A stretch of DNA of 64,000 bases from assembly GCF_019175365.1 (NCBI RefSeq), contig NZ_CP059572.1, positions 2,108,001 to 2,172,000 on the forward strand. Reading direction: 5' to 3'. Of the stretch, positions 1 to 13,568 are shown piece after piece. Both the position numbers and the translations under genes were made by a program. The notes beneath the pieces are model-generated. The model made no database searches. It saw nothing but the letters and a program-made list of their open reading frames with translations, and was not told where the DNA came from. The DNA comes from Actinomadura graeca (GTDB lineage: Bacteria; Actinomycetota; Actinomycetes; Streptosporangiales; Streptosporangiaceae). Position 1 is the stretch's first letter. Each line of letters begins with the position of its first letter.

Positions 1-445
1 TCGCCTCGTACAGCGGGTAGGCGAGGCGGTCGTTGGGGGCGAAGGCCTGGAGGCTGGGGTGGAACTTGAAGCCGCGCACCCCGTACTCCTCCACCAGGCG
101 GCGGGCTTCGCGCACCCCGGCGCGGCCCTTGTGGGGGTCGATGCTGGCGAAGGGGATGAGTACGTCGGGGTGGGCGGCGCAGCCTTCGGCGACCTCTTCG
201 TTGGCGATCCGCGGGTGCCCCGTGGCGTGCTCGGCGTCGACGGTGAACACCACCGCGGCCATCCGGCGCTCGCGGTAGTAGGCGGCCATCTCCTCAATGG
301 TGGGCCGGCGGTGCCCGTGGGCTTTGAAGTACTCCTCGGAGGCACTGAACAGCTCGGGGCTCAGCGCCCCGTGACCGTCCTTGGAGATTTCCGCGTGCGT
401 GTGCACGTCGATCGCGACGAGTTCGTCCGGGTCCAGCGATGGCAT
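1..445 (-). CDS. Amidohydrolase family 2 protein, C-terminus beyond left edge
   Basis: About 148 N-terminal residues are present and the rest lies off the window. The start ATG follows a GGAAGG ribosome-binding site. The protein opens with VAIDVHTHAEIS, whose HTH (His15, His17) is the metal-binding HxH of the amidohydrolase-2/ACMSD-like TIM barrel. A later FTVDAEHATGHP and PFASIDPHKG are also typical of the family, whose members are hydrolases or non-oxidative decarboxylases. It starts 53 bases after the acetoacetyl-CoA synthetase stop on the same strand, so it is probably the next gene of that operon. Its substrate cannot be told; hydrolysis or decarboxylation of an intermediate of the same pathway is an inference. 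Confidence 0.85.
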   Translation of the reverse strand, partial: MPSLDPDELVAIDVHTHAEISKDGHGALSPELFSASEEYFKAHGHRRPTIEEMAAYYRERRMAAVVFTVDAEHATGHPRIANEEVAEGCAAHPDVLIPFASIDPHKGRAGVREARRLVEEYGVRGFKFHPSLQAFAPNDRLAYPLYEA

Positions 446-498
446 CGTTGTCTTGCCTTCCGTTGTTGAGTGGGGACGGGGCTTCCGTTGCCGACGGG

Positions 499-2544
499 TC
501 AGCGCACGCGGGTTCTGGGACGGCCCTCGGTACGGAACCGCTGTGCCTGGTCCACGTACCAGTCGACCACTTCGGGGTTGGCCAGGGAGCCGCGGTTGAC
601 GGCGGTGGCCGGGTCGTGTCCGGTGAAGAGCTTTTTGATCGGGACCTCGATCTTCTTCAACGCGTGGGTGACCGGGACGGCGGGCGCGGCGATGATGTCG
701 TCCGGGACGTGCCGGTGTGAGGTGTGCTCCCGGATCGTGGTGTTGATCTTGGTTTTGAGCTCATCGGTGAGCTCGTCGTCGAGGACCACGAAGAGCGGCA
801 TCCAGTAGCCGCCGTCCGGTTGTTCCAGTCCGAGGACCAGGGCGTCGCGGACCTCGGGCACGTGCCGCAGCGCGGCGTAGATGTCGCCGCTGCCGAGGCG
901 GACCCCGAGCCGGTTGAGGGTGGCGTCCGACCGCCCGTGCACGATGAACTCGCCCTCGGGGGTCTCGGTGATCCAGTCGCCCTGAGTCCAGGCGCCCGGG
1001 AACTTCTCGAAGTACGAGCCGCGGTACTTGGCGCCGTCCTCGTCCCCCCAGAAGGACACCGGCATCGACGGCATGGGACGGGTGATGACCATCTCCCCGA
1101 CCTCGCCGACGACCCGCTCCCCGGCCTCGGACCGGGCCTCGACCGCCACGCCGAGCAGTGGCCCCTGGAGCCGGCCCAGGTGCACCGGCTCCAGGGGGTT
1201 CGAGCCGATGAATCCGCTGCAGATGTCGGTACCGCCCGTGTCGGAGCCGAGGTGGACGTCTCGCTTGACCTGTTCGTGCACCCAGCGCCAGGTCGAGTCC
1301 GGTAGGGGGGATCCGGTGGAAAGGATGGAGCGGAGCAGGGACAGGTCCCACTCCGTGCCGGGTTCCAGGCCGGACCTCTCCACCAGCGACAGGTAGGCGG
1401 CGCCAGTGGCGAACATGGTGGCGCCGGTCAGCGCGATGACCTCGAACTGCCGGTCCTTGCGCCGGTGGGTGGGCGACCCGGCGTAGGTGACCACGGAGGC
1501 GCCCGACATGAGGGTGTTGACCAGGGTGTTCCAGACCATCCACGAGGTGTTCGCGGCGACGTAGTAGCGGTCGCCCGGACCCATGTCCTGGTTCAGAGCG
1601 GTCCCCTTGAGGGCCTCCAGGGTCATGCCGCCGTGTCCGTGGACGATCCCCTTGGGCGAGCCGGTGGTACCGGAGGAGAACAGGATCCAGAGCGGGTGGT
1701 CGAAGGGCACCCTCAGGCAGGCGGGCTCGACGTCGTCCGCCACCAGCGCGGCGAAGTCCAGGCGGCCGGAGGCCACCGGCCCGGCTCCCGGTTCCGGGGC
1801 CGGGTCCAGGTGACGGACGAGGATGGTGTGCCGCAGCCCCGGCAGGCCGGCTTCCACCTCGGCCAGATGGTCCAGCCGGTGGACGTCCTTGCCGTTGAAC
1901 CGGTAGCCGTCCACACCGATCAGGATCTTCGGTTCGAGCTGGAGCAAACGGTCCAGGGTGGACGGGGCGGACAGATCAGGCGAGTTGATCGTCCAGACCG
2001 CGCCGATGCTCGCGGCGGCCAGCAGCCCGATGACGGCCTCGGGCAGATTCGGCAGCACGGCCGCCACCCGGTCCCCCGGTTCGACGCCCAGACGCTTCAG
2101 GTGCGCCGCGAGCGACGTCACCTGGGCCGCGAGCTGCCGCCAGGTGAGCGCCGAGGCGGCGTTGTCCTCGTCCACGGTCAGCACCGCGGTGGTCTCCGCG
2201 AGCCGCGGATCCCGCGCATGGCGCAGGACGTTCTCGGCGAAATTCAGCCTGGCGTGCGGGTACCAGACCGCTCCGGGCATGCGCTCCTCGGCCAGTGCGG
2301 GCCCCTGGAAGCCCTCGCCCACCACGCCGAAGTACTGCCGCACCGCGTCCCAGAAGTCCGCCGGTTCGCGCACCGACCACCGCCAGACCTCGCGGTAGTC
2401 CGCCGGCCGAACGTTCCGGTGCCGGGTCACCCAGGCCATGAAGTCCCACAGGCGGGACGCCCTCCGCTGTTCCTCAGTGGGCAGCCACGTCAGCTGCCGG
2501 CCGTCCGCCATACCGTCATGCACCGCGCCGTTGCGGGTCGACAT
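499..2544 (-). CDS. Acetoacetyl-CoA synthetase (acetoacetate-CoA ligase)
   Basis: A 681-residue ANL-superfamily ligase, about the usual length for acetoacetyl-CoA synthetases. The N-terminal acyl-CoA-synthetase cap is followed by the AMP-binding loop SSGTTGSPKGIVHGHGG near residues 290-306; the IVHGHGG ending is typical of acetoacetyl-CoA synthetases. SGTDIC-like GSDTGGTDIC, the ATLNRLGVRLGSGDIY segment and a C-terminal ALKKIEVPIKK with the catalytic lysine follow. The reaction is acetoacetate + ATP + CoA to acetoacetyl-CoA + AMP + PPi, in the cytoplasm; other 3-oxo acids are possible. The ATG at 2544 is chosen because GAAAGAGGTGG lies just upstream; a longer frame exists but runs into the HAD gene. 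Being last but one in a carboxylase operon implies that the operon makes a 3-oxo acid. Confidence 0.9.
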   Translation of the reverse strand: MSTRNGAVHDGMADGRQLTWLPTEEQRRASRLWDFMAWVTRHRNVRPADYREVWRWSVREPADFWDAVRQYFGVVGEGFQGPALAEERMPGAVWYPHARLNFAENVLRHARDPRLAETTAVLTVDEDNAASALTWRQLAAQVTSLAAHLKRLGVEPGDRVAAVLPNLPEAVIGLLAAASIGAVWTINSPDLSAPSTLDRLLQLEPKILIGVDGYRFNGKDVHRLDHLAEVEAGLPGLRHTILVRHLDPAPEPGAGPVASGRLDFAALVADDVEPACLRVPFDHPLWILFSSGTTGSPKGIVHGHGGMTLEALKGTALNQDMGPGDRYYVAANTSWMVWNTLVNTLMSGASVVTYAGSPTHRRKDRQFEVIALTGATMFATGAAYLSLVERSGLEPGTEWDLSLLRSILSTGSPLPDSTWRWVHEQVKRDVHLGSDTGGTDICSGFIGSNPLEPVHLGRLQGPLLGVAVEARSEAGERVVGEVGEMVITRPMPSMPVSFWGDEDGAKYRGSYFEKFPGAWTQGDWITETPEGEFIVHGRSDATLNRLGVRLGSGDIYAALRHVPEVRDALVLGLEQPDGGYWMPLFVVLDDELTDELKTKINTTIREHTSHRHVPDDIIAAPAVPVTHALKKIEVPIKKLFTGHDPATAVNRGSLANPEVVDWYVDQAQRFRTEGRPRTRVR

Positions 2545-2596
2545 CGTCGCCACCTCTTTCTCCTGCCGATCCCCTGTCCCAGCTCGTCCTCTGTAC

Positions 2597-3523
2597 CTAC
2601 TGCGTCTGCGCCGACGGCGGCGCCGCGTCCTGCGACGCGAGCGAGAGCAGCTCCAGCACCTCGGGCAGGCCGTCGGCCACGAAGTCCGGGCGCCGGTCGG
2701 CCGGTGCCGCCTCGGCGTCGGCGGCGGAGCTCGTGCCGGTGGTGACCAGACATCCCAGGGCACCGGCCGTCCGTGCCATCGCACACTCCAGGTCGAGGTC
2801 GTCGCCGACGATGAGCATCTGCTCCGGCCTGACCCGCAGCCGCCGGGTCAGCAGCTCCAGGGCCTCCCGCGACGGCTTCCCGAGCACGTGGTAGGGACGG
2901 CCGGTGACATGGCTGAGGCCGCTGGCGATGAAGCCGGACACCCCCACGTTGAAGCGGCGCTCGGAGGCGAAGGAGGGGGCGTCGGAGGTGCAGTAGATCG
3001 GTGCTCCGGCCAGGACGGCCTCGGCGGCCACCTGGAGCTTCTCCCGGCCGAACTGTGTGTCCCAGCCGATGACCACGGCGGCGGCGTCCGCCGGTTCCCC
3101 GGCGAGGGCCCGGTCCAGGTCCACCAGGGGGAGCCCGTGCCGCAGGAACTCCTCCTGGACGCCGGGGCCGCCGAAGATCAGGACGGGCCGCCCCGGATAC
3201 AGGGTCCGCATCGTCTCCGCAGCCACCACGGCGGGGGTGAGCACCTCCTCGTCCCGCACATCCAGGCCGAGGGAGCGCAGGGTCTCGGCGATCCGGGCGG
3301 GGGTCTGCATGGAGCCGTTGGTGAACACGGCCATGCTCCGCCCGGTGGCACGCACCAGGTCGATGGCCTCCCGGGCGCCGGGGAGGGCTCTGCCGCCGTG
3401 GCCACTGGGACCGTCGGAGAGCACCAGGCAGCCGTCGATGTCGAACATCACGCCGCGGACCTCGGCAAGCCTGGCGAGCTCCTTTCGCCGCTGCTCCCGG
3501 TGCGCCGTGCCCGCCGCGCTCAC
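2597..3523 (-). CDS. HAD-IIA (NagD-like) phosphatase
   Basis: A 308-residue haloacid-dehalogenase hydrolase. Motif I is VMFDIDGCL (Asp28, Asp30), followed by the NagD-type VFTNGS motif and GKPSREALELL with the conserved lysine, then the acidic motif IVGDDLDLE. The GTG start overlaps the carboxyltransferase stop as GTGA, which fixes the start and shows translational coupling. HAD-IIA enzymes dephosphorylate small phosphate esters such as p-nitrophenyl phosphate and nucleotide or sugar phosphates. In an operon that begins with a substrate-phosphorylating enzyme, this protein may remove phosphate from a pathway intermediate or a side product; that role is inferred. Confidence 0.85.
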   Translation of the reverse strand: MSAAGTAHREQRRKELARLAEVRGVMFDIDGCLVLSDGPSGHGGRALPGAREAIDLVRATGRSMAVFTNGSMQTPARIAETLRSLGLDVRDEEVLTPAVVAAETMRTLYPGRPVLIFGGPGVQEEFLRHGLPLVDLDRALAGEPADAAAVVIGWDTQFGREKLQVAAEAVLAGAPIYCTSDAPSFASERRFNVGVSGFIASGLSHVTGRPYHVLGKPSREALELLTRRLRVRPEQMLIVGDDLDLECAMARTAGALGCLVTTGTSSAADAEAAPADRRPDFVADGLPEVLELLSLASQDAAPPSAQTQ

Positions 3524-5106
3524 CGGGCGTCTCCGGTCTCGGTGCGGCGCAGTTCTATCCGCTCCGCGCCGCGGGTCACGGAGAGGTACGTCCATCTGGG
3601 CAGCCGGTGGGCGGCGCGGATGAAGTCGGCGACGCCGGTCACCGGGGCGGTGCCGCGGCCGGCGTCGGACGGGGACCAGCGCGGGGCGGGCCCCGCGGCG
3701 AGCATGGTGTCCACCTGATCCTGCGGGAGCACCAGGCGCAGCAGCAGCTCCTCCTCGGGCAGCTCGCGGGCGAACCGGCGCGCGTATTCCTCGTGCAGCT
3801 CGGCCAGGGACTTCTCGGCCGGGGTCACGGCGAGCTCACGGGCCCGGGACAGCGCGGCCACCTTCTCCAGGACCTCCGGCGCGATCTCCCCCTGGGGGGT
3901 GCCGAAGTTTCCGAGGACGAAGCGCACCACCTCGTCGGGGATGCGGCTGTAGCGTTCCTGGCCGGACCCGGCCGCCAGCACGTTCATCAGCGCCTGGCTG
4001 CCCACGAACTGGCTGAAGGGCGTGACCATGATCGGGTACCCGAGCTCCGCGCGGACACGTCCGGCCTCCTCGATGACGGCGGGCAGCGTGTCCAGCATGC
4101 GCAGCTCGCCGAGCTGGCGCTTGAGGGTGGAGATCATCCCGCCGGGGACCTGGTGCACGTGGAAGCTCAGGTCGTACTCGGTGGGCGCACCGGCCGGCAG
4201 GCCCTGGGAGTCGGCGACGGTGTGGAGGATCTCCGCGGCAGCGGCGGCCGCCTCGCGATCCGCCTGCACCGGGATGCCGAGGGCGTCGAGGTTGCCCAGC
4301 AGATTCTCCAGGCTGGGCTGGGCGGTGCCGTTGGAGAGCGGACCGAGCCCGGTGTGCAGCACGTCCACCCCCAGCTCGGCGGCCACCAGGTACAGGTGCG
4401 AGGCGGCGCCGGTGGTGCAGTGGCTGTGCAGCTCCAGGGGCTTGGCACCGGCGGCCTGGCGGATACCGGGGATCAGCTGCCGGGTGCGCTCCACGGTGAG
4501 CAGCCCGCCGGGGTCCTTGACGTAGAGGGAGTCCACGTACGGGCTGGCGTGGTACGCCCGGATGTTGCGGCTGTAGCTCTCGTCGGTGTGGACGGGGCTC
4601 TCGGTGAACGTCACCGCCGCCACCACCTGCTCGATCCCCTCCTCCTTGGCCCACTGGGCCACCCGGAGCAGGGAGTCGGCGTCGTTCATCGGCTCGGCGA
4701 TCTGCAGCCGGCGCAGCCCGTGCCCGGCCATCAGCCGCAGCGCCATCCGCATCACGGTCTCCGAAGCCCTCTCCCAGGACATGAAGCGCATGCCCGTGGT
4801 GATGGCAGACAGCGGGGTGGCGGGCATGACGGCGCGCATCCGGGAGATGCGCTCCCACGGGTTCTCCCGGTGCCACTTCACGCCCATGGCGAGGTTGGTC
4901 GAGCTGGTGAAGTCGATCGCCTCGTAGCCCACCCGGTCCAGCAGCGGTCCCACGGCCTCGACCATGCCGGTGGTGAGCCCGGTGGCGCCCCACAGGCTCT
5001 GGTTGCCGTCCCGCAGGCTGGTGTCCACCAGGCGGATCGTCTTCTGCCGCCCGTCGGACCCGGTGCGGGCCCCCGCCGCGGCCGGCTCGGTCGCGAGCGT
5101 GGTCAT
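3520..5106 (-). CDS. Pyruvate-carboxylase/5S-type carboxyltransferase subunit
   Basis: A 528-residue HMGL-like TIM-barrel carboxyltransferase related to pyruvate carboxylase, oxaloacetate decarboxylase alpha and transcarboxylase 5S. Visible motifs are TSLRDGNQSLWG (family: RDAHQS), SLYVKDPGGLL (family: KDMAGLL, with the metal-site lysine at about 197), LELHSHCTTG (metal histidines) and HVHQVPGGMISTL, then TPFSQFVGSQA. These conserved sites deviate from the pyruvate-specific consensus (DGN for DAH, DPGG for DMAG), which fits a different acceptor. It moves CO2 from carboxybiotin to an enolisable substrate. ATG overlaps the biotin carboxylase stop as ATGA. There is no fused biotin domain; that is the separate BCCP gene two genes upstream. 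Confidence 0.9.
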   Translation of the reverse strand: MTTLATEPAAAGARTGSDGRQKTIRLVDTSLRDGNQSLWGATGLTTGMVEAVGPLLDRVGYEAIDFTSSTNLAMGVKWHRENPWERISRMRAVMPATPLSAITTGMRFMSWERASETVMRMALRLMAGHGLRRLQIAEPMNDADSLLRVAQWAKEEGIEQVVAAVTFTESPVHTDESYSRNIRAYHASPYVDSLYVKDPGGLLTVERTRQLIPGIRQAAGAKPLELHSHCTTGAASHLYLVAAELGVDVLHTGLGPLSNGTAQPSLENLLGNLDALGIPVQADREAAAAAAEILHTVADSQGLPAGAPTEYDLSFHVHQVPGGMISTLKRQLGELRMLDTLPAVIEEAGRVRAELGYPIMVTPFSQFVGSQALMNVLAAGSGQERYSRIPDEVVRFVLGNFGTPQGEIAPEVLEKVAALSRARELAVTPAEKSLAELHEEYARRFARELPEEELLLRLVLPQDQVDTMLAAGPAPRWSPSDAGRGTAPVTGVADFIRAAHRLPRWTYLSVTRGAERIELRRTETGDAR

Positions 5107-6512
5107 CGGACGGCCTCCTTTCGCCGGTTCTGCCGCTGTTCCCAGGCCGGGCCGAACCACGAGGTGCTCACTCCGCCGTGGATGAAGTCGGGGTGGGAGA
5201 GGACGAACCGATGCAGTGGCAATGTCGTCCTGACGCCGTCGAGTACGACGGACTGCGCGGCGGAGCGCACCGCCGCCACCGCGGCGGGGCGGCTGTGAGC
5301 ACGGACGATCAGCTTGGCCATCAGGCTGTCGTAGAACGGCGGGAAGGGGTAGCCGTCCTCGATGTGGGTGTCCACGCGGATCCCCGGCCCGGCAGGCCAC
5401 CGCACGCGGTCGACGACTCCGGGGGTGGGCCGGAAGTCGTTGTCCGGGTCCTCCGCGTTGATCCGCAGTTCGATCGCGGTGGCCGGGGGGACCGGCGGCA
5501 CGTCGGGCAGCTGCGGGTCCCGGCCCAGGGCCAGGCGCAGCTGGGCCGCCACCAGGTCGATTCCGTAGGCCTCCTCGGTCACGGGGTGCTCCACCTGGAT
5601 GCGGGCGTTCATCTCCAGGAAGACCACGTCCTCGGACTCGGTGTCCACCAGGAACTCGACGGTTCCGGCGCCGCGGTACCGCAGGGCCCGTACCAGTGCT
5701 CGGGAGGAGTCGTGCAGCACGGCGCGCCGGGCTTCGGAGATTCCCGGTGCGGGGCATTCCTCGATGAGCTTCTGGTGCCGGCGCTGCACCGAGCAGTCCC
5801 GGTCCCCGAAGACCTGCGCGCCGCCCCTGCCGTCGCCGAAGACCTGCACCTCCACGTGGCGGGCCGCCGGGTAGAAGCGCTCCAGGTAGAGCGCGCCGTT
5901 GCCGAAGGCCGCCTGCGCCTCGGCCGCGGCCTGCGGTGCCAGCCGGGCGAGCTCCTCGGCGTCGGTCACCAGGCGGATGCCGCGGCCGCCGCCGCCGTGG
6001 ACGGCCTTGATCAGCAGCGGGTAGCCGATGGTCCCGGCGAGCGGGACCACGGCGTGCACGTCGTCGACCTCGACGGCGGGGGCCACCGGGACACCGGCCG
6101 CCACGGCTGCTTTCCGCGCGCTGCTCTTGTCCCCGACCGCGCGGAGCGTCTCCGGCCGCGGGCCGGCGAAGGCGATGTTCTCGGCGGCGAGCAGTTCGGC
6201 CAACTCGGGCTGTTCACTCAGGAAGCCGTACCCGGGGTGGACGACGTCGGCGCCCGCATGCACGGCGGCCTGGGCGATGTACTCCGGCCGCAGGTAGGAC
6301 CGTCCGGCCTGCGGCGGGCCGATGACGATGACGTCATCGGCCAGCCGTGCCGCCCGGGAGCCGGTGTCGGCCGCGCTGGCGGCCAGGACCGGGCCGGCCC
6401 CGATGCGCCGGGCGGCGGCGATGATCCGCACTGCGATCTCCCCGCGGTTGGCGACGAGTACCACGGGGGCCTTGCGGGTCCCGGGGGTCGTACGGGCGGT
6501 GGCGTTGCTCAT
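5103..6512 (-). CDS. Biotin carboxylase subunit (ATP-grasp)
   Basis: A 469-residue stand-alone biotin carboxylase, near the standard 450-residue length. It begins after a short tail with LVANRGEIAVRII. The ATP-grasp glycine loop GGGGRGIRLV is at residues 173-182. HVEVQVFGD, CSVQRRHQKLIEECPAP and FLEMNARIQVEHPVTE (near 298-313) are all present, so the active site looks intact. It carboxylates the biotin carried by the BCCP encoded just upstream, using ATP and bicarbonate. The start overlaps the BCCP stop as ATGA, and the stop overlaps the carboxyltransferase start in the same way, so the three subunits are translationally coupled. Confidence 0.95.
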   Translation of the reverse strand: MSNATARTTPGTRKAPVVLVANRGEIAVRIIAAARRIGAGPVLAASAADTGSRAARLADDVIVIGPPQAGRSYLRPEYIAQAAVHAGADVVHPGYGFLSEQPELAELLAAENIAFAGPRPETLRAVGDKSSARKAAVAAGVPVAPAVEVDDVHAVVPLAGTIGYPLLIKAVHGGGGRGIRLVTDAEELARLAPQAAAEAQAAFGNGALYLERFYPAARHVEVQVFGDGRGGAQVFGDRDCSVQRRHQKLIEECPAPGISEARRAVLHDSSRALVRALRYRGAGTVEFLVDTESEDVVFLEMNARIQVEHPVTEEAYGIDLVAAQLRLALGRDPQLPDVPPVPPATAIELRINAEDPDNDFRPTPGVVDRVRWPAGPGIRVDTHIEDGYPFPPFYDSLMAKLIVRAHSRPAAVAAVRSAAQSVVLDGVRTTLPLHRFVLSHPDFIHGGVSTSWFGPAWEQRQNRRKEAVR

Positions 6513-7063
6513 GACGCGCCCGCCTCGGCGACGACGGCGAGGGGCTGGCCGAACTCGACCTGCTCGTTGTCCTTGACCAGGAAGTCGGTGAGCGTGCCGG
6601 CGACCCCGGCGGTGACCGGGTTCATCAGCTTCATCACCTCGATGATGCCGATGGTGGTGTCCGGCTCGACGGTGGCGCCCGGCGCCACGAAGGGCGGTGC
6701 GCCGGGAGAGGGCGAGCGGAAGAAGACGCCGATCATGGGGGCGGGGATGGTCGTGCCCTCCACGGCCGGGACGGCGGGGGCCCGGACAGCGGTGGCCGGG
6801 ACAGCGGGGGCCGGTGCGGCTGCGGGCTCCGGTGCCGGGGCGGCGTGCTGTGCCACCGGGGCGGCGTTCGCCGGGGCCGGAGCGGCGGCCTGGACCGGCT
6901 GGGCGAGCGGGGCCGGCTGCTGCAGCTGCGGGGGCTCGGCCGAACGGGACATCCGCACCCGGACGTCGCCGAACTCGACGACGGCGGACTCGTAGGAGCC
7001 CTCGTCCAGCAGCGCCACGAGGTCCAGGATGTCCTGCCAGCTCGGGGTGGTCTCGGTGCTCAT
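6509..7063 (-). CDS. Biotin carboxyl carrier protein
   Basis: A 184-residue carrier. Residues 1-40 form an AccB-like N-terminal segment (DILDLVALLDEGSY), residues 41-105 are an Ala/Pro-rich flexible linker, and residues 106-182 are the biotinyl-lipoyl domain. The biotinylation motif is IIEVMKLMNPV with Lys145 as the biotin lysine; it reads VMKLM where the usual motif is AMKM. It shuttles carboxybiotin between the biotin carboxylase and the carboxyltransferase. It overlaps by four bases (ATGA) with the PEP-synthase-like ATP-binding gene upstream, tying the carboxylase to the phosphotransferase. Confidence 0.95.
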   Translation of the reverse strand: MSTETTPSWQDILDLVALLDEGSYESAVVEFGDVRVRMSRSAEPPQLQQPAPLAQPVQAAAPAPANAAPVAQHAAPAPEPAAAPAPAVPATAVRAPAVPAVEGTTIPAPMIGVFFRSPSPGAPPFVAPGATVEPDTTIGIIEVMKLMNPVTAGVAGTLTDFLVKDNEQVEFGQPLAVVAEAGAS

Positions 7064-8160
7064 CGGGTTTCTCCCTTGACCGCGGCAGCGACGAAGCCGA
7101 GCAGGTCGGTCGTGGCCTTGGTGGTGTTCCTGCTCTTCTGCTTGCGCTTCCGCCAGTTCGTCTCCGCCCGGGATTGCAGCAGCATGACCCGGGGAACGCC
7201 ATCGGCGTCCCGCTCAAGCGCCCACTCGATGTCCTGCGGGCAGCCGTAGTGCCTCTCCACGCGCAGCGCGATCTCCGCCAGCCGCATCAGCTCGCTCTCG
7301 CTCAAGCAGGGGACGTCACGGCGGGACTCCTCCACGTCGCGCCGGATCACGCCGGTGCCGTCCGGAGCGGGCACGTACTCGTGCTGCTTGGAGGCGATCC
7401 GGCGGCTGGTGACGGAGGGGCCGGCCTTGGTCAGCCAGTACTCGTCGGGGGTCACCTCGCCCGAGACCACGGCCTGGCCGAGCCCCCAGCTGGCGTTGAC
7501 GGCGATGACCGAGCGGTCGCCGGTGCGGGGGCTCACCGTGAAGGTGACCCCGGCGACGTCCGCGCCGGCCATCAGCTGCACCGCGACCGAGATCTTCGAC
7601 GCCTCGGTGGCGTCCGTGTCCGACATGCCGGAGCGGTAGGCGATCGCCTGGGGCGTGTAGAGGCTCGCCCAGCACTCGCGCACTTTGGCGAGCACGGCGT
7701 CCGCGCCCACCACCCACAGGTAGGTCTCCTGCTGTCCGGCGAAGCTGGCGGCGTCGCCGTCCTCATCGACGGAGGACGAGCGGACGGCGACCGGGCCGCG
7801 GTCGGGGTCGCCCGCACCGCGGCGCTGGGCGGTCTCCCGGGCGAGTTCCAGATAGGCCCCGCGGATCTCCTCCTCGACGGCGGCCGGCAGTTCGCGGCCC
7901 AGGATCAGCGCGGTGGCCCGCTCATGGGCGGCCTGGAGGGACTGCGGGCTGGCCGGGTCGGCGCCGCGTACCAGGCGCTTGAGCTCCTCGCGCAGGTCCG
8001 AGGCGTCCCGGAAGTCCTCGTACGCGTCCACGGTGATGGCGAACCCGTCCGGGACGGGCAGGCGGGCCTGGAACATCTCGCCGAGGCCGGCGCACTTGCC
8101 GCCCACCAGGGACCGGTCCGCCGAGCCGAGCTCGTGAAATCTTCTCGTGTAGGTTCCCAC
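7060..8160 (-). CDS. PEP-synthase-like ATP-binding subunit (phenylphosphate-synthase-beta-like)
   Basis: A 366-residue protein holding only the pyruvate-phosphate dikinase ATP-binding (PPDK_N) domain. Visible are LVGGKCAGLGEM near 18-29, VAVRSSSVDEDGDAASFAGQQETYL at about 124-147, GVTFTVSPRTGD, NASWGLGQAVVSGEVTPDEY, and the terminal QDIEWALERD with MLLQSRAET. No phosphohistidine or PEP/pyruvate-binding domain is attached. Its partner in the previous gene has the histidine domain. The GTG start is preceded by AAGGACG. The layout matches the 40-kDa subunit of phenylphosphate synthase of Thauera, which takes the beta-phosphoryl group of ATP; the substrate here is unknown. Confidence 0.88.
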   Translation of the reverse strand: MGTYTRRFHELGSADRSLVGGKCAGLGEMFQARLPVPDGFAITVDAYEDFRDASDLREELKRLVRGADPASPQSLQAAHERATALILGRELPAAVEEEIRGAYLELARETAQRRGAGDPDRGPVAVRSSSVDEDGDAASFAGQQETYLWVVGADAVLAKVRECWASLYTPQAIAYRSGMSDTDATEASKISVAVQLMAGADVAGVTFTVSPRTGDRSVIAVNASWGLGQAVVSGEVTPDEYWLTKAGPSVTSRRIASKQHEYVPAPDGTGVIRRDVEESRRDVPCLSESELMRLAEIALRVERHYGCPQDIEWALERDADGVPRVMLLQSRAETNWRKRKQKSRNTTKATTDLLGFVAAAVKGETR

Positions 8161-8273
8161 GTGTTCGTCCTTGTCAGCTGGGTCAGCCCCATTCGGGTGG
8201 GTGCCGCAGAGGCGGAGGGCGGTGCCGGGCCATCGCGGCTGTCCGGCGGGTGCGGCGGGTACGCGGGTGCGCG

Positions 8274-10163
8274 TCACGAGACGTCGGCGGCCTCGTCCAG
8301 GATGGTGACGGTGCCGGTGTCGCCGTCGACCCGGATCAGCTGGCCGGTCTTGATGGTCGAGGTGCCGAAGCCGGTACCGACGACGGCGGGCAGTTCGTAC
8401 TCGCGCGAGACGATCGCGGCGTGGCACATGATGCCGCCGATGTCGCTCACGGCCCCGCGGATCCGGCCGAACACCGGGGTCCAGCTCGGGCTGGTCACCG
8501 GGGCCACCAGGATCTCGCCGTCCTGGACGGCGTCGAGCTCGCTCGGGCGCAGCACGAGGCGGGCGCGGCCCTCGGCGACGCCGGGCGAGCCGGCGAAGCC
8601 GGAGAGGGTGGTGCCGTTCGCGCCGTCGCCCTGGGCGGCCAGCCAGCGCTCCACGGTCTCCGGGGTGATGCCCCAGAGCATGATGGTCAGCGGCTCGCTG
8701 ATCTCCTCCGGAACCGGTCCCAGGGCCGGCGGCGGGTTCCAGCCGCTCAGCGCGGCGTAGATCTCCTTGCGCCGCCTGATGACCTCCGGCCAGTGGTGGC
8801 CGCCCTGCGGATCGCCCCCGGCGCCCCAGGCCATCTGCAGGTCGACGACCGCCTCCTCGACCTCGGCGCGGCGCAGGAAGAAGATGTCCTCCACGTCCTC
8901 CCAGAAGCCCCACTTCTGCAGCAGTGCGCTGAACTCGCGCACCTTGTTCCAGAAGTTGGTGAGGAACCAGTGCTCCACGTAGAAGTTGTGGTTCTCCACG
9001 TAGGGGAACACCAGCCGTGCCAGGCCGAGCGCCTCGTCGAAGCCGGGGAGGTCCTCTTCGTCCAGGAGTGAGCGGTACTGGTCCACCAGGGCGTCGCGCT
9101 CCGCCTGGAGCTTCTCCAACGGGCGGACGAGGTCGTCGCCCTCGCGCAGGCGGTCGATGTAGTCCCCGATGGCCTGGATGGGCAGGGTCAGGTCGTCGAT
9201 CCAGCTGCGGTGCGAGTGGTACATACCCGAGCCGTAGGAGAAGTGGAACCAGGGGTCCTTGCTCTCCTCAAGGGCGGCCAGCCACCGGCGCCCGGCGCCG
9301 GTCCCGCCGAGGCCGGTGATCAGCTCCTCCCCGGTGGTGGCGGCGCGGACGGCATCGCCCACGCCGAGCTCCTCGGCCTTGCGGGCGAGGGCACGCAGCT
9401 CGTCGTCGGGGCGGAAGAGCAGCACGTCGATGCCGCTGACCATCCGTGAGATCGTCTGATCGTCGATCTCGGGGAAGTGCTCCTTGCACAGAGTGAGGAA
9501 CCGCAGGTAGGCGGCGTAGCCCAGGTTCAGGAACTCCGAGTGCAGGGTCCAGATACGGTCACCGTGCTCAAGCAGCCGGTGGTAGGCGGCGAGCAGCTGG
9601 TTGCCCTGGCTGGGTCCACGCTCCTCCAGCACGCGCTCGATCGGCTCGAACTCCGACAGCGGAGGGACCTCAAGGTCGTGGACGGTGCGGATGGCGTCCG
9701 TGACACGGTCCTGCCATTCCGCGTACAGGGTCTCCCAGTTCCGAAAGTAGTGGCCGGCGCGCTTGGCGAACTCCTCCGCCCGGCGGGCCTGCTCCTCCTC
9801 GTCCGGGCTGGGGATGGTGGACATGTAGGTGTAGCCGTTGACGACCCTCACGTCCAGGCCCTTGGCCGGCGGCAGGACGAACACGCGGGTGTTGGTGACG
9901 CCGGTGCCGGTGAAGGCGCCGTCGACGATCAGCTGGTCGAAGGGGTAGGAGACCTCCGGGAAGTGCAGCGAGTTGCGGAACCAGGTCTTCGCTGAGTCCT
10001 CCGCGCGCCGGGCGTACAGGAACCGGTTGTGGTAGGCGTACATCTCCTCCCAGCCCTCGGCCCCTTCCGGAGTGGAGATCTCGTAGGGGTCCGGGAAGCC
10101 GCGGCCGGGAGTGGGCTGCGCGGAAGGAGGAGTCTGGCTCCGTTCGCCGTCTGCAGTGGTCAC
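8274..10163 (-). CDS. PEP-utilising phosphohistidine subunit (phenylphosphate-synthase-alpha-like)
   Basis: A 629-residue (about 70 kDa) protein. The last 90 residues are a swivelling phosphohistidine domain with AVSDIGGIMCHAAIVSREY, His581 being the expected phosphorylated histidine. The preceding 500 residues form a helical substrate domain rich in aromatic residues (YHNRFLYARR, WFHFSYGSGMYHSH, ENHNFYVEHWFLTNFWN). There is no C-terminal PEP/pyruvate TIM barrel. This is the architecture of phenylphosphate synthase subunit 1 and resembles rifampin phosphotransferase more than PEP synthase. The GTG start is chosen because AAGGAG lies seven bases upstream; an ATG at 10211 has no such site. It is the first gene of the operon, 113 bases before its ATP-binding partner. 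Confidence 0.88.
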   Translation of the reverse strand: MTTADGERSQTPPSAQPTPGRGFPDPYEISTPEGAEGWEEMYAYHNRFLYARRAEDSAKTWFRNSLHFPEVSYPFDQLIVDGAFTGTGVTNTRVFVLPPAKGLDVRVVNGYTYMSTIPSPDEEEQARRAEEFAKRAGHYFRNWETLYAEWQDRVTDAIRTVHDLEVPPLSEFEPIERVLEERGPSQGNQLLAAYHRLLEHGDRIWTLHSEFLNLGYAAYLRFLTLCKEHFPEIDDQTISRMVSGIDVLLFRPDDELRALARKAEELGVGDAVRAATTGEELITGLGGTGAGRRWLAALEESKDPWFHFSYGSGMYHSHRSWIDDLTLPIQAIGDYIDRLREGDDLVRPLEKLQAERDALVDQYRSLLDEEDLPGFDEALGLARLVFPYVENHNFYVEHWFLTNFWNKVREFSALLQKWGFWEDVEDIFFLRRAEVEEAVVDLQMAWGAGGDPQGGHHWPEVIRRRKEIYAALSGWNPPPALGPVPEEISEPLTIMLWGITPETVERWLAAQGDGANGTTLSGFAGSPGVAEGRARLVLRPSELDAVQDGEILVAPVTSPSWTPVFGRIRGAVSDIGGIMCHAAIVSREYELPAVVGTGFGTSTIKTGQLIRVDGDTGTVTILDEAADVS

Positions 10164-10241
10164 TGGCTGCTCCTTCACGTCCACCGGAGGCTTGCACGTA
10201 GGAGTCACCATGGGGCCTGTGGCTCAGATCGCCAAGCAAGC

Positions 10242-10330
10242 TTTCCACTGAGTAAAAAACAACAGACCCCGAGTCCGCGATCCTGCACTTCGGAACGTGA
10301 TCATCAGCCGGACGTTTTCATTCAGTGAAG
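10242..10330. promoter_or_regulatory. Two related dyad sites in the divergent IclR/operon promoter region
   Basis: The 275-base divergent gap (10164-10438) is locally AT-rich. It holds two imperfect inverted repeats with a shared core: TTTCCACTGAGTAAA at 10242-10256 (opposite strand TTTACTCAGTGGAAA) and TTTTCATTCAGTGAAG at 10315-10330. Both read TTnAyTCAGTGrAA when the first is taken on the minus strand. The length and symmetry fit an IclR-type operator, and the position fits control of both the carboxylase operon and the IclR pair. No -10/-35 box was assigned. Confidence 0.45.
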
Positions 10331-10438
10331 TGCTGATTAGGCTGGCCTCCGCGTCGCCCGGACGCCGCACACAGTCACGACGAAGCCACCGCACGGAGCC
10401 ATCACAGCCACCACAGGAACGACCCGCCAGGAGAAGCG

Positions 10439-11266
10439 ATGGCAGCAGCAGAGAACGGCAACCCCGGCAAGTCGGTGATCCACCGGGCCTTCGCCGTCCT
10501 GATGTCCTTCGACGTCGCCCACCGGTACCTGACGCTGTCTCAGCTGTCGCGCCGCAGCGGTCTTCCCGTGGCCACCACCTTCCGGCTGCTCAACCACCTT
10601 GAGGTGATCGACGCCGTCGAGCGCGACACGGCGGGGCGGTACAGCATCGGCCCCAGGGTCTGGGAGCTCGGCATCCTGGCCCCCACCCATGACGTGACTG
10701 GCAAGGGCACCCGTCCGCTGCTGGTCCGGCTGGCGGCCAGGACCGGCATGATGGTGCGGGTCTTCGCTTACAAGAGCCACAATGCGCTGTGTTTGGAGGA
10801 GGTCCTGGCCAACGGCGCCAGCTCCTCCGGCGGCGGGCCGGGGCTGACCCTGCCCTTGGCCGACTCGGCCGCCGGCCGGGTCCTCCTCGTCCGCATGGCA
10901 CCCGCGGCCAGGAAGTCACTGCCGTTGACCCGGGCGCAGTTCGACGAGGTGGAGGAGGCCATCGCCGCGTACGGGCGACAGGGCTGGGTCCGGCTTGCCC
11001 GCTCCGACGGACAGGCCGAATACGCCGTCGCCGTCGACGCCGAGGGCCGCCCGCCCATGGCACTCTCCGTCAGTCCCCCGCCGACCCGGGCGGCGGGGGC
11101 CAAGGCCGATCCCTTGCCGGCCTCCGCAGTCAAGAGCCTGGTATCGGAGCTCCACAGCGTGGCCCATGCCCTCGCCACCGCTCTGGCCAGACCTGCCGAT
11201 CCTCCGGGACACGCGAGCCCACCACCGTACGACAGCGAGGAGGACACCATCGACCATGAGCAGTGA
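10439..11266 (+). CDS. IclR-family transcriptional regulator (first of a pair)
   Basis: A 275-residue protein. An N-terminal winged helix spans about 12-70 (VIHRAFAVLMSFD, LTLSQLSRRSGLPVATTFRLLNHLE) and an IclR effector domain spans about 85-250. The ATG follows CAGGAGAAGCG. The tail after residue 250 is Pro- and Asp-rich and runs over the start of the second regulator by 11 bases. It is divergent from the phosphotransferase-carboxylase operon, so it is the likely regulator of it. The effector domain is less typical than that of its neighbour (short, with a GGGPGLTLPLADSAAGR segment). Confidence 0.88.
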   Translation: MAAAENGNPGKSVIHRAFAVLMSFDVAHRYLTLSQLSRRSGLPVATTFRLLNHLEVIDAVERDTAGRYSIGPRVWELGILAPTHDVTGKGTRPLLVRLAARTGMMVRVFAYKSHNALCLEEVLANGASSSGGGPGLTLPLADSAAGRVLLVRMAPAARKSLPLTRAQFDEVEEAIAAYGRQGWVRLARSDGQAEYAVAVDAEGRPPMALSVSPPPTRAAGAKADPLPASAVKSLVSELHSVAHALATALARPADPPGHASPPPYDSEEDTIDHEQ

Positions 11267-12056
11267 GCCGTCCAAGAGCCCCCCGAAGTCTGTCACCGCC
11301 AGGGCACTCGCCGTGCTGGCGGCGTTCGACGTCGAGCATCCACTGCTCACGCTCAGCCAGCTCGCCCGGCGCTCGGGACTGCCGGTGGCCACCGTGTACC
11401 GGCTCGCCGGCGAGTTGGAGGACGGCGGCTTCCTCGACCGGAACAGCTCCGGCCGGTACGGGCTCGGCGTGCGGCTGTGGGAGATGGGCGTGCTCACGCC
11501 CATCCACGGCCGGCTGCGCGAGACGGCCCTGCCCTTCCTGCTCAACCTCCAGTACGACTGCCGCGAGACCGTGCAGCTCGCCGTATGCGACGGCGCGGCC
11601 GCCATCTACATCGAGAAGCTCACCTCCGAGCTGTCGGTCCCCGTGGAGAGCCGCATCGGCGCCCGGATCCCCCTCCACGCGACCGGCATCGGCAAGGCGC
11701 TGCTGGCGTTCAGGCCCGAGGCATTCACCGAGGCGATCCTGGCCATGCCCCTGAAGCGGTTCTCACCGGAGACGATCACGGACCGCCGGGTGCTGACCCG
11801 CCAGCTCGCGCAGATCAGGCAGCAGGGCTACGCCCAGAGCCACCAGGAGTACCACCTGGGCTCCACCTCCATCGCCGCGCCGGTCCTGGTCGGCGGGACC
11901 GTCAAGGCCGCCATCGGCATCGTCAGCTACGCGCTGCGCGAGGATCTGGACCAGTTCGCGCCCGTCTTGCTGCACGCGGCGGAGGGCCTGGCCAAGCGGC
12001 TGGCGGAGACGGAGGGCACTGCCTACCCGAGCCTGAGCGGCCTGGACCAGGAGTGA
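11256..12056 (+). CDS. IclR-family transcriptional regulator (second of a pair)
   Basis: A 266-residue IclR protein with helix-turn-helix LTLSQLARRSGLPVATVYRLAGELE near 33-57 and a canonical effector domain (ETVQLAVCDGAAAIYIEKL, IPLHATGIGKALLAF, RRVLTRQLAQIRQQGYAQS). The ATG at 11256 lies inside the end of the first IclR gene, with AGGAGG 13 bases upstream, so the two are co-translated. The helix-turn-helix regions of the pair are clearly alike, suggesting duplication; they may form a heteromer or respond to different ligands of the divergent operon. Confidence 0.9.
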   Translation: MSSEPSKSPPKSVTARALAVLAAFDVEHPLLTLSQLARRSGLPVATVYRLAGELEDGGFLDRNSSGRYGLGVRLWEMGVLTPIHGRLRETALPFLLNLQYDCRETVQLAVCDGAAAIYIEKLTSELSVPVESRIGARIPLHATGIGKALLAFRPEAFTEAILAMPLKRFSPETITDRRVLTRQLAQIRQQGYAQSHQEYHLGSTSIAAPVLVGGTVKAAIGIVSYALREDLDQFAPVLLHAAEGLAKRLAETEGTAYPSLSGLDQE

Positions 12057-12125
12057 AAGATCTCAGGGGCGTTGGTCGTGCGGCTAGCCTAGGGACGCGA
12101 AAGACCGATCGAAGGGGGCAGTCGG

Positions 12126-13568
12126 GTGCCGCATCCCCGGGTCAATTTCGTCGGTGAGGCGGGCTCTGACCTGCATCTTGAGCTGTCGCCCACGGGGCCT
12201 CGCCGGGCGGCGGTGGCGGCGGCGCTGCGGGACGCGGTGCGCAGTGGGCGGCTCGCGCCGGGGACCCGGCTGCCGCCGTACCGCTCACTCGCGGTGGATC
12301 TGGGGGTCGCACGCAACACGGTCGCGGACGCGTATGCCGAGTTGGTCGCCGAAGGCTGGTTGACAGCCCGGCAGGGATCCGGAACCCGGGTCGCTGAGCG
12401 CGTCGCTGCCAGGCCACGGCGTGTTCCCAGGAAGGCCCCTGGGCGTGGGGACGGCGCCGTCCACGATCTGGGGCAGGGGCAGCCGGACGCGACGTCCTTT
12501 CCGCGCGCCGCGTGGGCCGCGGCCGTTCGCCGCGCGGTGACCGCCGCACCACATGACGCCTTCGCCCCCGGCGACCCTCAAGGGCGTCCCGAACTGCGCC
12601 GCGCGCTGGCCGAGTACCTCGCACGGACGCGTGGCGTGTCTGCTTCACCGGACCAGATCGTCGTCTGCGCCGGGTTCGCGCACGGGCTGCGTCTGCTGTT
12701 CGGCGGCGGGGTGCTGTCCGGGCCGCTGGCCGTCGAGCCCTACAGCCTGCCCTTCCACCGCGGCGTCCTGGGCGACGCCGGAGTGCGCACGATCCCGCTG
12801 GGCCTGGACGAACGGGGCGCACGGACCGAGGAACTGGCGTCGCGTCCTGGCACCTCGGGGCGGCACGGAGCACGTGCTGTCCTGCTCACTCCCGCTCATC
12901 AGTTCCCGATCGGCGGCCCGCTGCATCCGGCGCGCCGCGCCGCGGCCGTCGACTGGGCGCGCGGTCGCGGTGGTGTGGTGCTGGAGGACGACTACGACGG
13001 CGAGTTCCGTTATGACCGGGAACCGGTGGGCGCGGTTCAGGGGCTTGATCCCGAGCACGTGGTCTACATCGGCTCGGTCAGCAAGAGCCTGTCCCCGGCG
13101 ATCCGGCTCGGCTGGATGGTTCTGCCGCCGCACCTGGTCGGCCTCGTGCTCGCGGCCAAGGGACTGCGCGAGGCGTGGACGGGCGTCACCGACCAGCTCG
13201 CGCTCGCGGAGTTCATCGCCTCCGGGCACTACGACAAGCACATCCGCCGTATGCGGCAGCGCTATCGCGCCCGCCGCAACCAGCTCGTCGCGACGCTGGC
13301 CGAACGCGCCCCGCACATCGCGGTGACCGGAATCGCGGCCGGGCTGCACGCCGTCCTCCGCCTGCCCCCGGGCACCGAGCCGTCCACTGTGAAGGCGGCC
13401 ACCGGGATGGGCGTGGCCCTCGACGGCCTGGCGGCGTTCCGCCACCCCGACAGCCCCCAACCCCACTGGGACGGGCTGGTCGTCGGGCACGCCACACCGC
13501 CCGAGCACCGCTACCGGCCGGCGCTCGACGCGCTGTGCCGTGCCCTGCCACCACCCCCTGACGCCTGA
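12126..13568 (+). CDS. MocR-type regulator (GntR helix-turn-helix fused to aminotransferase fold)
   Basis: A 480-residue protein. Residues about 15-85 are a GntR winged helix (LRDAVRSGRLAPGTRLPPYRSLAVDLGVARNTV). The rest is a fold-type-I aminotransferase domain with LEDDYDGEFRYDREPVG and the PLP-lysine motif YIGSVSKSLSPAIRLGW. MocR proteins such as PdxR and GabR sense PLP or amino compounds. The GTG start follows AAGGGGGCAG. It lies 69 bases after the IclR pair and converges on the MFS-cupin operon; its target is not evident from the sequence. Confidence 0.92.
   Translation: MPHPRVNFVGEAGSDLHLELSPTGPRRAAVAAALRDAVRSGRLAPGTRLPPYRSLAVDLGVARNTVADAYAELVAEGWLTARQGSGTRVAERVAARPRRVPRKAPGRGDGAVHDLGQGQPDATSFPRAAWAAAVRRAVTAAPHDAFAPGDPQGRPELRRALAEYLARTRGVSASPDQIVVCAGFAHGLRLLFGGGVLSGPLAVEPYSLPFHRGVLGDAGVRTIPLGLDERGARTEELASRPGTSGRHGARAVLLTPAHQFPIGGPLHPARRAAAVDWARGRGGVVLEDDYDGEFRYDREPVGAVQGLDPEHVVYIGSVSKSLSPAIRLGWMVLPPHLVGLVLAAKGLREAWTGVTDQLALAEFIASGHYDKHIRRMRQRYRARRNQLVATLAERAPHIAVTGIAAGLHAVLRLPPGTEPSTVKAATGMGVALDGLAAFRHPDSPQPHWDGLVVGHATPPEHRYRPALDALCRALPPPPDA

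Follow-up and report, generated by a model that had tools for sequence, protein, structure and literature searches.

The analysed stretch of DNA (the window; 64,000 nucleotides of the 8.94-Mb Actinomadura graeca contig NZ_CP059572.1) carries at its left end an operon of eight minus-strand genes, reaching from position 10163 down past the window's left edge. Judged by its homologies, it is almost certainly a hpe operon for hydroxyphenylethanone catabolism, the degradation of 4-hydroxyacetophenone (HAP) and acetovanillone (AV). The initial annotation had read the same genes as a possible new route for the carboxylation of acetone or butanone. Its description of the gene set was borne out, as all eight genes were found by their domains and 4-base overlaps occur at five of the seven junctions. 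These are the first five; at the last two, the genes are separated by 52 and 53 bases.

The first gene, hpeH (8274-10163, 629 amino acids), encodes the kinase subunit with a substrate-binding and a swivel (phospho-His) domain; PF00391 was located at the C-terminus of the product, and NCBIfam PRK08296.1-5 scored above cut-off. It is followed by hpeI (7060-8277, 405 amino acids, PF01326) for the ATP-grasp (PPDK_N) kinase subunit and by the genes of the carboxylase HpeCBA. These are hpeC (6509-7063, 184 amino acids, PF00364) for the biotin carboxyl carrier protein (BCCP), with the biotin Lys145 assigned by the motif EVMKLM; the gene of the biotin carboxylase subunit (BC; 5103-6512, 469 amino acids, 50.0 kDa; PF00289, PF02786 and PF02785); and that of a PYC_OADA/5S-type carboxyltransferase subunit (CT; 3520-5106, 528 amino acids, 57.2 kDa), which matched PF02436 and had a PF00682 score slightly below its cut-off. 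The HAD-IIA phosphatase gene hpeD (2597-3523, 308 amino acids) matched PF13344/PF13242, with TIGR01460 above cut-off. Gene hpeE (499-2544, 681 amino acids) encodes an AMP-forming 3-oxoacyl-coenzyme A (CoA) synthetase of the acetoacetate-CoA ligase family, with TIGR01217 (715.9 bits) and PRK03584 (817.1 bits) both above cut-off. The last gene, hpeF (1-445, continuing left of the window), is complete in the adjoining DNA (L005:64-945), where it encodes an Amidohydro_2 hydrolase of 293 amino acids (PF04909, 5.2e-58). This protein is the proposed beta-ketoacyl-CoA hydrolase HpeF, on the basis of its position and of the A. macra gene, to which it is 97% identical. No hydantoinase-related domain was found by the domain scan in the eight operon proteins. 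Acetone carboxylases of the AcxABC type, which carboxylate a ketone using ATP, have hydantoinase-related subunits and form a protein family unrelated to the biotin enzyme present here.

For hpeH, a GTG start at 10163 is likelier than the ATG at 10211. The sequence AAGGAG lies directly upstream of the GTG, the A. macra sequence at this place aligns with the ATG starts of three relatives (L007, L009 and L012), and the catalytic His would then be residue 581, as in HpeH of Rhodococcus rhodochrous GD02.

Correspondence with characterised pathways

By domains, profiles and order, the window operon corresponds gene for gene with the Hpe operon of strain GD02, hpeHICBADEF, described as eight catabolic genes with two putative regulators upstream (PNAS 2022, PMC9618137). 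Both have the same eight functions in a single orientation, 4-base overlaps and two regulators upstream; they differ in that overlaps are reported for seven of the eight GD02 genes, whereas the window's last two junctions are gaps. The comparison with GD02 was drawn from the published description and from a structural match. The best match of the HpeI subunit among solved structures was 9goj (E 3.8e-192, residues 37-405), deposited as 'phosphoenolpyruvate synthase'; the kinase paper identifies 9GOJ as GD02 HpeI, which supplies the ATP-grasp subunit to the hydroxyphenylethanone kinase HpeHI (J. Biol. Chem. 2025, PMC12167813). The GD02 operon is induced on AV and HAP, and its kinase, carboxylase and phosphatase activities were demonstrated, the HpeE and HpeF steps being proposals in that work (PMC9618137). 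HpeHI transfers phosphate from ATP, mainly yielding AMP, onto the phenol oxygen (PMC9618137, PMC12167813), and the carboxylase is active on the phosphorylated ketones but not detectably on the free ketones (PMC9618137). The pathway is already known, published as the degradation of lignin-derived aromatic ketones. The earlier remark that no characterised pathway with this gene set was known does not hold, since the route was described in 2022, the kinase in 2025, and six A. macra genes were assayed in 2026.

By analogy, HpeI of A. graeca would bind ATP and pass the beta-phosphate on to HpeH, at His581; the HpeH swivel domain would carry it to the phenol hydroxyl of the ketone, with conversion of ATP to AMP and Pi. 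BC, BCCP and the 5S-type CT would then add a carboxyl group to the methyl carbon of the aryl-phosphate ketone, with ATP converted to ADP, and HpeD would take the phosphate off the carboxylated product. In the last two steps, both proposed from homology, HpeE would couple the aryl-3-oxopropionate to CoA, and HpeF would split this ester into acetyl-CoA and an aromatic acid, 4-hydroxybenzoate or vanillate, for further conversion to protocatechuate.

The comparison with phenylphosphate synthase made in the initial annotation was apt, as the two-subunit phenol kinases CreHI (4-cresol) and PpsAB (phenylphosphate synthase) are homologues of HpeHI (PMC9618137, PMC12167813). They differ from it by having Ser, not Cys, before the catalytic His (PMC12167813), and HpeCBA shares no homology with the carboxylase used in the phenol pathway (PMC9618137). 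XccABC of Aromatoleum aromaticum EbN1 is described as a homologous three-part 4-hydroxyacetophenone carboxylase clustered with hpeHI homologues, although it belongs to an anaerobic pathway (PMC9618137). The Acv pathway of Sphingobium lignivorans SYK-6 has, by description, the same type of kinase, carboxylase and phosphatase; it differs in comprising six genes only, with the last two steps encoded elsewhere, and in a relatively higher activity on acetosyringone (AS) (PMC13101465).

Activation of a ketone by the phosphotransferase, its carboxylation to a 3-oxo acid and formation of the CoA ester by the ligase, a step that is itself a proposal, survive in outline from the initial annotation. What finds no support is the enol phosphate, since the characterised relatives phosphorylate a phenol hydroxyl, and the choice of acetone or butanone, since the closest characterised enzymes act on HAP or AV and the ketone would be aromatic; none of the findings indicates either of the two. 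In the earlier scheme the enol phosphate of acetone or butanone would be carboxylated to acetoacetate or 3-oxopentanoate and esterified with CoA. The ligase scores above the acetoacetate-CoA ligase cut-offs agree with this scheme, as does the loss of a pyruvate-binding Arg from the CT (see below), by which the acceptor probably has no carboxylate at that site. However, the ligase family name fits hpeE as well, the closest characterised homologue of which is acsA2 of Sinorhizobium at 42% (PMC9618137), and an aryl phosphate accounts for a phosphatase acting after carboxylation (PMC9618137). Close homologues with data act on phenols (PMC9618137, PMC12167813), the A. macra genes yield hydroxyphenyl-beta-ketopropionates (PMC13101465), and neither acetone nor butanone is among the substrates described in the hpe literature covered. 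The acetone or butanone enol phosphate was rejected because of the phenol-directed activity of these homologues, and its chances appear very remote.

Residue markers in the carboxyltransferase and the kinase

Relatives were collected by a scan of 84,980 species genomes with HpeH, and the loci considered are the best 80 of 203 confirmed. A CT gene lies near the kinase gene in 20 of these 80, so the association is not due to chance. Co-occurrence had been proposed as a check on the initial annotation, and it was found: all eight genes stand on one strand, by match positions, in L006, in the Rhodococcus metagenome-assembled genome (MAG) L007, in an Acidimicrobiaceae MAG (L010) and in Blastococcus (L024). 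Proteins of L007 are 62-87% identical to those of the window, and the ligase match in L024 is only 42%. Clustering of kinase and carboxylase in 52 of 836 cases, from another work, is cited in PMC13101465, so the wider distribution is not new.

The CT keeps the metal ligands and the catalytic Thr of pyruvate carboxylase (R32, D33, K197, H227, H229 and T362). The position of the pyruvate-binding Arg is occupied by Thr104 in the window and by Thr in all 21 proteins compared, those of the window and of the 20 loci. In pyruvate carboxylase of Lactococcus lactis this residue, Arg606, binds pyruvate, and its mutation in a homologue abolished activity (PMC9581989). Thr104 was matched to Arg606 via the alignment with relatives and the spacing to the metal ligands, the L. 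lactis protein itself standing outside the alignment. The Arg is kept in the 5S, OadA and PC-beta chains aligned with the CT, and also in three relatives from congeners (L104-L106) whose frames of 1123-1190 amino acids have the size of pyruvate carboxylase. The change of Arg to Thr would fit an aryl methyl ketone or another acceptor that lacks a carboxylate. It bears as well on the possibility that the operon holds a housekeeping pyruvate carboxylase, or another pyruvate-using biotin enzyme, next to an unrelated kinase. Membership of the CT in the PYC_OADA family is what such an enzyme would have, but the joint occurrence of kinase and carboxylase genes in a quarter of the loci (20/80) speaks against it, and the genome contains a separate CT match, 29% identical, in an open frame of 1209 amino acids, again the size of pyruvate carboxylase. 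Pyruvate as acceptor was rejected because of this separate gene and the Arg to Thr change, and its likelihood is next to negligible.

Table 1 of PMC9618137 labels HpeB (49.3 kDa) as the carboxyltransferase and HpeA (57.4 kDa) as the biotin carboxylase. The order in the window is BCCP, BC (50.0 kDa), CT (57.2 kDa), and the same order was observed in L007. From gene order and masses, the two labels look swapped, the GD02 DNA itself lying outside the comparison.

In HpeH, the motif SDIGGIMCH fits the phospho-His motif T/SxxGGxxxH, with Cys580 preceding His581. The numbering is that of GD02 HpeH (Cys580/His581), in which H581Q abolishes activity, and in CreH and PpsA a Ser precedes the catalytic His (PMC12167813). 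Cys-His was found in the window and in all 20 CT-linked HpeH proteins, 19 of them read by script and L017 (SDIGGIMCH) from its protein. In the 60 loci with no CT in the DNA examined, the residue before His was Ser in 52, Ala in three and Cys in five. The contigs of two of these five, L014 and L016, end inside the operon; the other three, L028-L030, are Chloroflexota MAGs. In the latter, the Cys-His HpeH is accompanied by HpeI, an IclR gene and a phosphatase resembling HpeD, and no biotin carboxylase was found in the DNA examined around them. A quick maximum-likelihood tree of 81 HpeH proteins (SH-aLRT, no bootstrap; GD02 HpeH, CreH and PpsA not among its rows) paired the window with A. macra (support 100), within a branch of 23 rows (support 100) made up, besides the window, of all 20 CT-linked loci, L014 and L016. 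By its place in this tree, the window HpeH groups with the carboxylase-linked kinase clade.

In six loci from Aurantimicrobium and other Microbacteriaceae MAGs (L017-L022) there is no hpeI in the operon and the BCCP gene follows directly after hpeH, the two being separate genes in L017. Each of the six genomes gave exactly one PF01326 match, although the MAGs may be incomplete. These lone proteins are about 40-42% identical to the window HpeI. In five genomes (L092-L096) the gene adjoins an HpeH paralogue (39-44%; in L096 over 55 residues only), and the sixth locus, L098, is cut short. The HpeH of these Microbacteriaceae may rely on an ATP-grasp subunit that belongs to another phenol kinase.

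Nearest relative, substrate and use of the products

The best relative in the scan was A. macra NBRC 14102, contig NZ_BCQT01000001.1. Its DNA is 95.4% identical to the window over 12,135 aligned bases covering the operon and both regulators (BLASTN), and all eight genes and both IclR genes stand in identical order, the only difference seen being sequence divergence. Protein identities (best TBLASTN segment) are 94-97% (HpeH 95%, BC 96%, HpeD 97%, HpeE 94%, HpeF 97%) except for BCCP, the most divergent, at 76%. A. macra NBRC 14102 is among the only four other genomes with complete hpe clusters reported in PMC9618137, and NZ_BCQT01000001.1 is named as the source record of the cloned A. macra hpe operon (AEM 2026, PMC13101465). 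Expressed in RHA1, the first six A. macra genes converted HAP, AV and, weakly, AS to hydroxyphenyl-beta-ketopropionates, with 2.3 (HAP), 2.5 (AV) and 0.02 (AS) U/g compared with 97, 107 and 0.09 U/g for the GD02 genes (Table 4, PMC13101465). The abstract of that paper agrees with Table 4, and one sentence of its text reverses the two ratios.

Further matches in the genome concern the use of the products. The search covered pobA, pcaG and VanA_C, with vanB and pcaH outside it. A pcaG match (192.9 bits, above cut-off) and a weaker match beside it lie at 15.3-16.4 kb. At 19.6 kb there is a pobA-like gene, and one VanA_C (vanA-type) protein is present in the genome (142.9 bits, above cut-off). With these three, the products of the pathway can probably be used.

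Several points weigh against the assignment to HAP and AV catabolism. The steps in this genome are all drawn from homology, the substrate cannot be read from sequence alone, and the pobA-like gene (501.6 bits) falls below the curated cut-off of 538.7. In addition, AV conversion by the A. macra version was about 43-fold slower than by the GD02 version in the same host (Table 4, PMC13101465), which may mean that the Actinomadura version has a different best substrate. This slowness would be explained if the pathway is the same but its true substrate is another para-hydroxyphenyl ketone, for example a homologue like a hydroxypropiophenone, or an acetophenone made by plants or by the organism itself, and the presence of the CT at 96-100% in only two of 65 genus genomes could be taken in the same sense. 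On the other hand, the 20 relatives share the metal-site residues and Thr104, the A. macra genes do convert HAP and AV (PMC13101465), and the low activity may stem from expression in a foreign host. We consider such a substrate quite improbable.

The genus search, with the CT as query, gave those two genomes (the window genome and one other), one genome with a 38% relative, 57 with matches at 24-30% only, and five with no match; the operon is thus patchy. The 38% relative, in another species of the genus (L107, genome G063, 3068-12521), is surrounded by genes encoding a family III CoA-transferase, an Amidohydro_2 protein, an isochorismatase, hydantoinase A and two solute-binding proteins. BCCP and BC matches, the latter of 75 residues, were seen near this CT relative (L103), and no kinase domain was found among the ten frames scanned at L107. 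The locus perhaps belongs to another carboxylation pathway.

The regulatory region

Two IclR-family regulator genes on the plus strand diverge from the operon, the first at 10439-11266 (PF09339; 95% to A. macra) and the second at 11256-12056 (PF09339 and PF01614; 97% to A. macra). The interval between them and the operon contains an operator-like palindrome, TTTCAYTNARTGAAA, twice: a copy with 2 mismatches occupies 10243-10257 and one with a single mismatch 10316-10330, no strand being assigned to either. When up to 2 mismatches are allowed, the number of matches expected across the whole window is 0.02. The consensus derives from aligning the window with L006, L007, L009 and L012, so these five are not independent support. 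In the 18 further loci (within L006-L027), a perfect copy was found upstream of hpeH in 12; the palindrome was weak in L016 and L023 (11/15 positions) and not above background (8-9/15 positions) upstream of hpeH in L024-L027. Among the relatives, the conserved palindrome, in one or two copies, stands upstream of hpeH in L006-L015 and L017-L022. A second copy scoring at least 13 occurred in eight of the 23 regions (window, L006, L007, L009, L011 and L018-L020). One or both hpe IclR proteins probably use the palindrome as their operator; no published account of an hpe IclR operator turned up in the literature search. A broader proposition, that the version shared by the window genome and A. macra has drifted to another para-hydroxyphenyl ketone, which would explain slow AV conversion in RHA1, and that TTTCAYTNARTGAAA is in addition the hpe IclR operator, seems unlikely as a whole.

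The DNA to the left of the operon (contig 2098001-2107500) contains genes for a sulfotransferase and a GntR/FCD regulator and, separately, a run that looks catabolic, with acyl-CoA ligase, cyclase-family, Ribonuc_L-PSP and aldehyde dehydrogenase genes.

What looked like a striking new ketone carboxylation operon thus very probably turns out to be the published lignin-ketone pathway, in a close relative of Actinomadura macra. For the field of lignin valorisation, the analysis adds one more hpe operon found in nature, lists relatives from other actinobacterial families and proposes a candidate operator. It also offers two residue markers by which the family may be told apart, Cys-His in HpeH and Thr in place of Arg in the CT.

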